Shown here: in pieces, positions 57,457 through 62,830 of the stretch
Numbering within the stretch: position 1 is the first letter of the stretch
Layout of the letters: each line of letters opens with the position of its first letter
Notes under the pieces: model-generated
Databases searched by the model: none
What the model was told of the DNA's origin: nothing
What the model saw: only the letters and a program-made list of their open reading frames with translations
Program-made: the position numbers and the translations under genes
Source of the DNA: Bacteroidales bacterium
GTDB taxonomy: Bacteria; Bacteroidota; Bacteroidia; Bacteroidales; Paludibacteraceae
DNA length: 64,000 nt
NCBI GenBank assembly: GCA_015061165.1
Contig: SUXC01000005.1
Span: forward strand, 62,001-126,000
Reading direction: 5' to 3'

Positions 57457-57538
57457 CAAACTCGAATAAAATGAATAAGGAGAAAACCGAAAAGCCTTGA
57501 TAAAAGTGAGTAGGTATCATTAAAAAAAAACAAAAAAA

Positions 57539-58468
57539 ATGAAACGAAAAAAAAATGTTATTGGAACACTTGTGTTCCTGAGTTTGTTACTATTGTCAGC
57601 TTGTAGTAACAATGGAAATGGTCCAGCGGAAGATGTACTTTCAAAAAAAGTCTATTCTCGTGTAGTTAGTACATATGACGGTGTAGGTGATTTTTACAAT
57701 GGTGTGTCAGTCGTAAGAATTACAGATGAGAAATATGATTCAAAATATGGTGCAATCAACACCAAAGGAGAAGTTGTTATTCCAATTGAATACGATGAAG
57801 TCAATAATTGCCATGAAGGAAGGTGTATCGTACGAGTTGGAGGCTCGTTCTCAGGAAAATATGGCGTAGTAGATGCTACGGGAAAAGTAATAGTAGCTCC
57901 AACTTCCAACTATAGTAAAATTGAGGATTTTGAAAATGGTTTGGCTGTTGTTAAGGACGCTAAATCAGATTTGTATGGTTATATTAATCTCCATGGAGAA
58001 GTGTCTATTCCTTTGACCTATAAGTATGCATATTCTTTTTCGGAGGATCTTGCATGTGTAAAAGTGAAAGCCAACAAATATGGTTACATCAATGAAAAAG
58101 GCGATGTCATTATTCCAATGGGATTTGATGATGCTGAATCATTCTCAGAGGGGTTAGCTGTCGTTGAAAAAGCAAACAAAGAAATGGTGATAGATAAAAA
58201 CGGTGAGATTATATATACTCTACCTAAAAATCAAGAATTCTATAGTACTGGGTATCATAATGGACTGATTTGTGTTGTAAAAGACCGAGATGGTGATTGG
58301 TGGAGTGATGAAGATCAAAGATGTGGCTATCTTGATACTAAGGGAGAGGTAGTGATTGATTTTATATATGATGATGCAGACGACTTTGAAGATGGAATCG
58401 CGTATGTAGAAAAAAATAACAGGGACTTCTGCATTAATACCAAAGGCGAAGAAGTGGAATGTGAATAA
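57539..58468 (+). CDS. WG-repeat lipoprotein
   Basis: Lipobox LLLLSACSNN; repeats KYGAINTKGEVVIPIEYDEV, KYGVVDATGKVIVAP. Confidence 0.88.
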   Translation: MKRKKNVIGTLVFLSLLLLSACSNNGNGPAEDVLSKKVYSRVVSTYDGVGDFYNGVSVVRITDEKYDSKYGAINTKGEVVIPIEYDEVNNCHEGRCIVRVGGSFSGKYGVVDATGKVIVAPTSNYSKIEDFENGLAVVKDAKSDLYGYINLHGEVSIPLTYKYAYSFSEDLACVKVKANKYGYINEKGDVIIPMGFDDAESFSEGLAVVEKANKEMVIDKNGEIIYTLPKNQEFYSTGYHNGLICVVKDRDGDWWSDEDQRCGYLDTKGEVVIDFIYDDADDFEDGIAYVEKNNRDFCINTKGEEVECE

Positions 58469-60366: not shown

Positions 60367-60374
60367 TACCTTTG
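60367..60374 (+). promoter_or_regulatory. -7 box for DUF3791/DUF3990 module
   Basis: TACCTTTGCAGCGC. Confidence 0.8.
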
Positions 60375-60401
60375 CAGCGCAATTGTACAATAAACTACCT
60401 T

Positions 60402-60623
60402 ATGTCACAAAAAACATTTTGGAAAATACAATACATCAACCTTTGTATTGATGAGTTCGCTCGCAAGTATCGCCTTGCGCCGAAGGTAGCATATAACTAC
60501 TTGAACAAATACAAAGGTCTTGAATTTCTCAACGAGCATTATGAGTACGAACATACACAAGCTCTTTGGGAGACTCAAGAATCGTTACGAATAGTTTGTC
60601 AGCGTAATGGAGGAACAATCTAA
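60402..60623 (+). CDS. DUF3791-like small protein
   Basis: WKIQYINLCIDEFARKYRLAPKVAYNYLNKYKGLEFLNEHYEYEHTQ; start placed downstream of -7 box at 60367. Confidence 0.75.
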   Translation: MSQKTFWKIQYINLCIDEFARKYRLAPKVAYNYLNKYKGLEFLNEHYEYEHTQALWETQESLRIVCQRNGGTI

Positions 60624-61090
60624 TGATCAAACTTTATCACGGAACAAATACAACATTCGATAAAGTCGAATTAGATAAGTGCCTGCCCTACAAAGATTTT
60701 GGCAGGGGATTTTATCTTACCACTATTCGGACGCAAGCATTGGCTCGTGCAAAAAACAAATGCAATTTTGAGGGCGGAGCGCCTACTATTCTCGCATATC
60801 AATTTGACGAAAAAGAGTTTGCGAATCTGAATGTTAAGTGTTTTGAAAAACCTACAGAAGAATGGGCTAACTTCATTTTTGCTAATCGCGATAAACGCAA
60901 TAAGAAGATGCATAACTACGATATCGTCATCGGACCAGTAGCAGACGATGGAGTGATTGCGTCCATACGACTATACGAAACAAAGGTTATTGACCTTGCT
61001 GAATTTGTTAAAAGACTTGAGTACGCTCACCCAAACGTACAATACGCATTTTGCACAGAACGAGCAATAGCATTGTTACAAAAGATATGA
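60623..61090 (+). CDS. DUF3990-like, ADP-ribosyltransferase-fold protein (putative toxin)
   Basis: LYHGTNTTFDKV, GRGFYLTTIRTQALARA, AFCTERAIALL; overlaps upstream stop. Confidence 0.75.
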   Translation: MIKLYHGTNTTFDKVELDKCLPYKDFGRGFYLTTIRTQALARAKNKCNFEGGAPTILAYQFDEKEFANLNVKCFEKPTEEWANFIFANRDKRNKKMHNYDIVIGPVADDGVIASIRLYETKVIDLAEFVKRLEYAHPNVQYAFCTERAIALLQKI

Positions 61091-61293: not shown

Positions 61294-61459
61294 GAAATGA
61301 GTTAACTACAAATTGTAGCCAACTGAAAACTAACCAAATTACCACCCCCCTAAATTATAAATAACCCAATAAATAGTACATTGTAAATCAGTAAATTGTA
61401 AATAATTTGCAGCGCACCGCGTTGCCCGACATATGTAATATAGCGTTATAAGCCCAGAC

Positions 61460-61597
61460 TTGATTTTCTGAAAACTCGACACTTTCAAGAAATCATTTGT
61501 TAACTCAAGTACGGTTTATGCACGCTCATGCTTTTGGCGTGAGTTTTCCGTGCATAGATTTGAGTTAACAAGGTAGTCGAGAACCTCAGAAAATCAA
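61460..61597. other. Long nested inverted repeat (candidate structured RNA or mobile hairpin element)
   Basis: Paired arms 61460-61471/61586-61597 (12 bp), 61475-61480/61576-61581 (6), 61497-61508/61560-61571 (12), 61517-61524/61549-61556 (8), 61525-61531/61537-61543 (7 with one G-U). Confidence 0.9.
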
Positions 61598-61720
61598 ATC
61601 CAAGCGAACGAAAGCGCACGCTTTTTGTGTATATATCACTCTCGCAACTCCTATGGGACTAAAAAACAACAAAACAACAAAATAAACCACAATATTTAAC
61701 CAATTAAAAACAACAAAACA

Positions 61721-62830
61721 ATGAAAAAGTTATTTTCTATTCTCGTTTTGGCATTGTCATGCAGTGCCTTATTTGCGCAACAGACTGCTGTTGCATTGTT
61801 AAATCACGAAGGTACTATCTCTACCTTCTATGGTGCAGACGCTCTCACTCAAGCACACAAAGCAGCGGTGCATGGCGATGTGATTACGCTCTCAGGTGGT
61901 GCATTCACAGCCCCATCATCTTGGACAAAGGCAGTTACGCTTCGTGGTGCAGGTTGCTACGAAGGTGCAGACAATAGCCGAGAAGTAACATCTATTGGTA
62001 ACTACTTCAAATTCGCAATACCTGTCGAAATCGAAACAACAATGACAATTGAAGGCATTAATTTCAAATCTGAATTTTCATTTTCAACGAAGGTTAAAAA
62101 TACCACATTCCTCAAATGTTATTTCGCACGTTATATAAGTAACGTTTGTTGTAACACCAACTTTTACAATTGTATATTGAATGGGCTTACGTTCAGTGCT
62201 TCTGAAACAAATTTAGCAGATGTTAATTTGTTTAATTGCTATGTGAATGATCCGAATAACAATAGTGGCGATGTATCTGTAAAACTTACTAATTGCATTG
62301 TAAGATATTCATGCACCAACCAAAGTCATGCAGGCAGTAAGATTTGGGATCTAAAATATGCAAAATATAACAATTGTATTTTCTTAGGAAATATAAAAGT
62401 AGGCAGCACCGCTCCAAGTGGTTTTAACATTCCAACAACATGTACCGCAACCAATTGTCTTTCTTGTTATTGCGCTTATCAAAACGCATCAGACACTCAA
62501 GATGCTATCTACGACTATAATATATTTGAAGATATGAACAACAACACCAACAAATATTTAGAAGAAGGAAAACCACTTCATGAAACAATACCTTCTGTCT
62601 TCAAAACATGTCCTGGTATATATGATTTTACATTCAATGAAACATACGAATTAACCGATGATGCAAAAGCCACTTATCTCGGCTCTGACGGTACACAAGT
62701 GGGACTCTATGGCGGTATGGGCTTTGACCTCATTCCTTCTACGCTCCAAATCACCAAATGCGAAGTATCTCCTCGCTCCACTTCTGATGGAAAACTCTCT
62801 GTAAGTATCGAAGTAGGTATTCCTGAATAA
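61721..62830 (+). CDS. Secreted beta-helix-like surface protein
   Basis: Signal peptide; repeated 'TNFYNCILNG...LFNCYVND...LTNCIVRYS' rungs. Confidence 0.7.
   Translation: MKKLFSILVLALSCSALFAQQTAVALLNHEGTISTFYGADALTQAHKAAVHGDVITLSGGAFTAPSSWTKAVTLRGAGCYEGADNSREVTSIGNYFKFAIPVEIETTMTIEGINFKSEFSFSTKVKNTTFLKCYFARYISNVCCNTNFYNCILNGLTFSASETNLADVNLFNCYVNDPNNNSGDVSVKLTNCIVRYSCTNQSHAGSKIWDLKYAKYNNCIFLGNIKVGSTAPSGFNIPTTCTATNCLSCYCAYQNASDTQDAIYDYNIFEDMNNNTNKYLEEGKPLHETIPSVFKTCPGIYDFTFNETYELTDDAKATYLGSDGTQVGLYGGMGFDLIPSTLQITKCEVSPRSTSDGKLSVSIEVGIPE

Follow-up and report, generated by a model that had tools for sequence, protein, structure and literature searches.

The window analysed here is a stretch of 64,000 nt from the genome of a Bacteroidales bacterium (contig SUXC01000005.1, positions 62,001 to 126,000). 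It harbors a structured element followed on the same strand by a gene for a predicted exported protein without Pfam match (Table 1). The next gene, from 62856 onward, has a Por secretion tail match below the cut-off. On the other side of the element, the "ART-like module" of an earlier note on this DNA corresponds to a DUF3791 and DUF3990 gene pair at 60372-61090. The five nested helices of 12, 6, 12, 8 and 7 bp that the same note had described between 61460 and 61597 are present exactly as claimed, including the perfect outer arms and the TTTTG apical loop. The RNA from 61440 to 61620 has a minimum free energy of -66.8 kcal/mol compared with -36.5 +/- 3.9 kcal/mol for dinucleotide shuffles, of which 0 out of 200 were as stable (z = -7.8). 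The reverse strand of the element folds too (z = -6.4). The core is correctly delimited by these helices, but the element itself is longer: the covariance-model match, which is the sole convincing one in the window, extends from 61440 to 61628 and takes in a conserved outer pairing, P0, between AGCGT and ACGCT. Similarly, the absence of a U tract holds within the core, but a T5 run is found at 61622-61626, 25 nt beyond it, preceded by a local AAGCG/CGCTT hairpin. P0 is mostly invariant in 57 copies of the window genus and therefore shows little covariation; a counterpart, AAAGCG/CGCTTT, is found in most other families. A small hairpin, GGCGCAAGNGNGCGCC, is located just 5' of the element at loci L127, L128, L265 and L266 and before many genus copies, and is absent from the window copy.

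Table 1. Position of the element, its strands and the adjoining features in the window.
Feature	Position	Strand	Evidence
Putative Bacteroidetes-type promoter: -33 TTG (61381-61383), -7 box TAatTTG (61403-61409)	61381..61409	+	
Whole structured element, apparently a leader	61440..61628	+	model R1 match, 197 bits
P0 5' strand AGCGT, partner 61618-61622	61442..61446	+	pairing kept by almost all of the 57 genus copies
P1 5' strand TTGATTTTCTGA (S1), partners 61586-61597 (12 bp, perfect) or proximal 61483-61495	61460..61471	+	covariation; permutation
P2 5' strand, partner 61576-61581 (6 bp), inside loop of possible mini-hairpin TGAAA/TTTCA	61475..61480	+	
S2, proximal strand able to capture S1 (alternative hairpin)	61483..61495	+	permutation
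P3 5' strand TTGTTAACTCAA, partner 61560-61571 (12 bp, perfect)	61497..61508	+	covariation
P4 5' strand (61517-61524, 8 bp), P5 hairpin (61525-61531/61537-61543, 7 bp) and apical loop (61532-61536); conserved apex ACGCTCACG...GCGTGAG	61517..61543	+	
P4 3' strand	61549..61556	+	covariation
P3 3' strand	61560..61571	+	covariation
GGTA-GTCGAG-AACC: P2 3' strand between GGU/ACC, possible mini-hairpin	61572..61585	+	
P1 3' strand TCAGAAAATCAA (S3)	61586..61597	+	covariation
AAGCG...CGCTT local hairpin and T5, terminator-like in window genus; ACGCT is also the P0 3' strand	61602..61626	+	
Downstream gene, 369 aa, N-terminal signal peptide (MKKLFSILVLALSCSALFAQ...), no Pfam match	61721..62830	+	

TAnnTTTG is the -7 box of Bacteroidetes promoters. 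The corresponding box of the putative promoter upstream of the element is one T short of this consensus, and transcription in the window would start near 61416. A paralogous copy (L002) carries an exact box, TAATTTTG, at nearly the same relative position. Over 208 copies, TAnnTTTG peaks 60-120 nt upstream of the element, with 52 matches in the 80-100 nt bin compared with 2.0 expected. Exact boxes at -160 to -40 were observed for 92 of 127 copies from other families and 31 of 81 from the genus, versus 15 of 130 and 10 of 82, respectively, downstream, and individual copies also show a -33 TTTG. This promoter placement suggests that the element is transcribed.

The genome that contains the window harbors six strong copies of the element, with 75-100% identity, plus a few weaker ones. 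By DNA search, 29 of 61 relatives were found to carry the element, and almost all of these belong to the same genus. Using the covariance model, the element was found in 166 of 178 genomes of the window genus, in 69 of 395 genomes (44 of 207 genera) of an order sample, and in 13 of 396 genomes of a class sample, 8 of these 13 being outside the order. In a phylum sample of 300 genomes, no element was detected except in the own genome, and false positives of the model are thus rare. In named genomes, at least 118 stretches fitted a search pattern, and the informative names among them are Bacteroidales or Bacteroidetes, save one record labelled Synergistales. Named carriers include Paludibacteraceae, Prevotellaceae, Muribaculaceae, Alistipes, Dysgonomonas, Bacteroides, Barnesiella and Tannerellaceae, among others. 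Carriers span gut and environmental Bacteroidales and extend to a small number of further orders in the class. By the earlier note, its reading would fall if copies elsewhere, a transcript and conservation in relatives were all lacking; copies and conservation are both clearly present.

Within the genus, copies are only 67-88% identical and retain their pairing. The genus alignment of 57 copies, which was built from sequence and from which the structure itself was read, comprises 53 pairs that are 95.3% paired, with 290 double-change cells versus 83 in shuffles. Sliding the partner by 1-3 columns leaves at most 33 such cells. P1 shows double changes at 8 of its 12 pairs in the genus, as does P3, for which the proportion reaches 11/11 across families. 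P2 is 99.7% paired and 6 of its 7 pairs covary across families. For 88 distinct copies from other families, 909 double-change cells were counted compared with 273 after shuffling and at most 149 after sliding, in an alignment that was fitted to the model and leans towards it. Because diverged copies keep their pairing through hundreds of compensatory changes, selection acts on the RNA structure. The element is a conserved RNA structure and no chance palindrome.

We performed a search for known RNA families using Rfam 15, which gave no match at E<=1 between 61000 and 62000 of the window. At seven loci from other families, nothing overlapped the element except a Thr_leader match below threshold in L110 (22.2 of 55 bits). 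At L106, a sub-threshold DUF805 match (27.7 of 51 bits, E 0.4) starts in the 3' end of the element. The element is thus not explained by any Rfam family, and a literature search covering open-licence papers revealed no description of it. The Bacteroidales-1 RNA (RF01693) has been listed from Bacteroidales with an unsure cis-regulatory role (PMC2864571). It is similar to the element in length (about 180 positions) and order, but its matches in the own genome are located at C19, C4 and C23, and none at copies of the element. One of them is over threshold (G000:C19:63952-64154, L299) and unrelated to the element. The element shares with riboswitches and other 5'-leader regulatory RNAs the 5' UTR position, a covarying multi-helix fold, conserved junction nucleotides, and multiple copies within one genome that precede different genes; the helices that may compete in the window genus would be a further likeness. 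It is a conserved structured RNA by its fold and lies in a 5' UTR by its position, transcription being deduced from the promoter. Unlike riboswitches, it has no Rfam model, and ligand binding is here putative. The element appears to be a structured leader RNA as a kind, and new as a family.

Of 199 copies, 193 (97%) share their strand with the downstream gene, which begins at a median distance of 74 nt, whereas the upstream gene may be on either strand (144 same, 55 opposite). With simple heuristics for both gene and signal-peptide calls, a signal peptide was predicted for 72% of downstream genes, compared with 15% of upstream genes and 25% of other genes. No Pfam family dominates downstream, where BspA-type LRR, PEGA, lipocalin-like and OmpA matches are found along with many genes without match; names assigned from NCBIfam include lipoprotein and gliding or T9SS ones. 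These functions are too varied to point to one ligand. The upstream neighbours of other copies include DUF2442, KilA-N, HEPN, AbiEii and ParE genes, and also housekeeping genes. A structured non-coding RNA was among the options of the earlier note, and this is the one borne out by covariation in 57 genus and 88 other-family copies, by the position of the promoter and by the fixed downstream orientation. The element is probably a structured 5' leader RNA that is co-transcribed from its own promoter with the next gene and controls that gene in cis. It would most likely switch exported-protein genes on or off.

The own promoter and the U tract, which follows a simple AAGCG/CGCTT motif in 69 of 82 genus copies and 39 of 131 copies elsewhere, would also suit an independent, trans-acting small RNA with its 3' end at the U tract, the position before exported-protein genes being incidental or reflecting base-pairing targets. 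Such an RNA is improbable: the downstream gene is close and on the same strand, a second promoter often has no room and shows no sign, a DUF805b motif (see below) can lie further along the same leader, and the U tract is missing in a class member (L294). A leader peptide was also considered and rejected, as the frame of the apical ATG is not conserved and is shifted by the length of the loop.

The earlier note had also proposed a MITE-like element or a recombination/integration hairpin. MITEs are expected as dispersed and nearly identical copies whose orientation relative to genes is not fixed, and this is not the pattern observed. Several dispersed copies are indeed present per genome, and two pairs of loci have the element and a gene in common within unrelated flanks. 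However, the copies are old and diverged yet preserve their pairing, they are tied in fixed orientation to the 5' side of one gene, and none was detected in IMG/VR viral contigs at the scanned pattern. In addition, the element region of L265 and L266 (genomes G003 and G004) is 58-90% identical versus 91-100% for the gene body. As the element has diverged more than the gene, this pair points to recombination at the leader and not to transposition of the RNA. A MITE-like or other mobile hairpin is thus very unlikely.

The two locus pairs deserve description in their own right. L265:5155-9819 and L266:6786-11446, from two species, have in common a large exported-protein gene (91-100% identity, sampled body) preceded by clearly different element versions, as if the leaders were recombination anchors. 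L127:5055-7351 and L128:4891-7188, likewise from two species, have a segment of 2.3 kb in common (98% identity). This segment comprises the element, a gene starting MDFKDSIKQL, a second gene and a secretion-tail coding-end remnant (EKVYTLQGQEV), so that a non-secreted gene pair is localized between the leader and a T9SS-type gene-end remnant. A mobile cassette was considered for these loci, and homologous recombination between leaders and gene ends fits both pairs better.

An integron attC-like recombination site between cassettes is also a long imperfect hairpin near accessory genes, and toxin-antitoxin-like genes are often found upstream of the element. Neither the orientation of the element nor its promoter or pattern of conservation suits such a site; the downstream gene is fixed while the upstream gene lies on either strand. 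In the part of the genome that the draft covers, no integron integrase scored over the cut-off, the best match reaching 87 of the 265 bits needed, the level of an ordinary tyrosine recombinase. An attC-like site is therefore the least probable of the readings that we considered, close to negligible.

The P1 5' strand, S1, is complementary to two sites, the nearby S2 and the far-end S3. In the genus, the cognate S1:S2 duplex has an energy of -9.0 kcal/mol versus -6.1 kcal/mol when permuted, with 0 of 5000 permutations as good, in statistics that ignore the relatedness of copies. The signal persists after deletion of the common TGAAA/TTTCA core (z = -8.6; reversed control, z = -0.8). Outside the genus, S1:S2 is weaker and the reversed control also deviates (z = -5.0); the alternative fold is therefore claimed for the genus only. 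On either side of the P2 strands, GAA can pair with UUC and GGU with ACC, and these short stretches hardly vary. Double changes in GGU/ACC occur in two rows, which is no more than suggestive of a loop-loop contact of two mini-hairpins; P2 may equally be simply nested, as the earlier note described. In other families, an outermost extra helix (z = -7.4) and a pseudoknot that reaches about 30 nt beyond the U tract (z = -10.0) covary, and both are without support in the window genus. A consensus terminator scan made no call at the 61602-61626 hairpin. This terminator-like hairpin is not conserved outside the genus, and the U tracts found there may instead pair with a run of A at the 5' end, which is the likelier arrangement. 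No expression platform is conserved across families, and the control mechanism may differ between them.

In the cis-regulatory leader that we favor, the own promoter would give one transcript containing the element and the gene behind it. The RNA would form a long stem (P1, P2 and P3-P5) closed by the short outer helix, with conserved nucleotides at the junctions and apex. S1 would toggle between S2 and S3 and, in the genus, the closing strand ACGCU would be competed for by the RNA 5' end and the local hairpin before the U tract. One of the folds would be stabilised by a signal, which might be a metabolite, an ion, a protein or temperature, and transcription or translation of the exported protein would be set in this way. 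We infer this switching between folds from the competing complementarities.

A second motif before some start codons was first thought to be new and turned out to be the known DUF805b. For 24 of 213 copies, and for none of the shuffles, a pseudoknot of the form CGGA-N4-GCC-GAAAA-UCCG-N-GAGUA-GGC follows the element and precedes the start codon, and Rfam assigns this small pseudoknot to DUF805b. An Rfam search of 9 loci other than the seven mentioned above revealed DUF805b behind the element. The own genome contains eight DUF805b copies, two of them directly behind the element. DUF805 and DUF805b (RF03081 and RF02914, clan CL00115) are cis-regulatory motifs located just before the start codon, and in the 24 leaders counted above such a motif stands in tandem with the element. 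They differ from it in being 35-68 nt motifs downstream of, and separate from, its fold. Together, covariation, promoter placement, position and orientation, exported-gene enrichment and the DUF805b tandem argue for a new cis-regulatory leader of an exported-protein regulon.

This leader might represent a new riboswitch class or direct sensor RNA (about 190-250 nt) in which P2 is a loop-loop contact or a pseudoknot and which links one common signal to a large and variable set of exported proteins in the class Bacteroidia, sometimes with DUF805b as a two-input leader; we put this forward tentatively, at somewhat below even chances. A sub-case of the cis leader, in which a protein such as a NusG-like antiterminator or another RNA-binding regulator binds instead of a ligand, is a possibility to which we would give about one chance in three. 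The conserved apex sequence, ACGCTCACG..GCGTGGG, and a diverse regulon not tied to one metabolite are consistent with protein binding, whereas no partner gene for an RNA-binding regulator was seen adjoining the element.

Bacteroidales dominate animal guts and, to our knowledge, the way in which they select surface and secreted proteins for production is understood only in part. The near-ubiquity of the element in one ruminant-gut genus, with several copies per genome, and its presence in many families point to a common, unrecognised signal that controls exported proteins. Such a signal can be tested with the model, the list of copies and the DUF805b tandem. Elsewhere in the window, a DUF805b-like motif at 57477-57516 (30.6 bits, under the gathering score of 35.6) is positioned 23 nt upstream of a lipoprotein-like gene at 57539.
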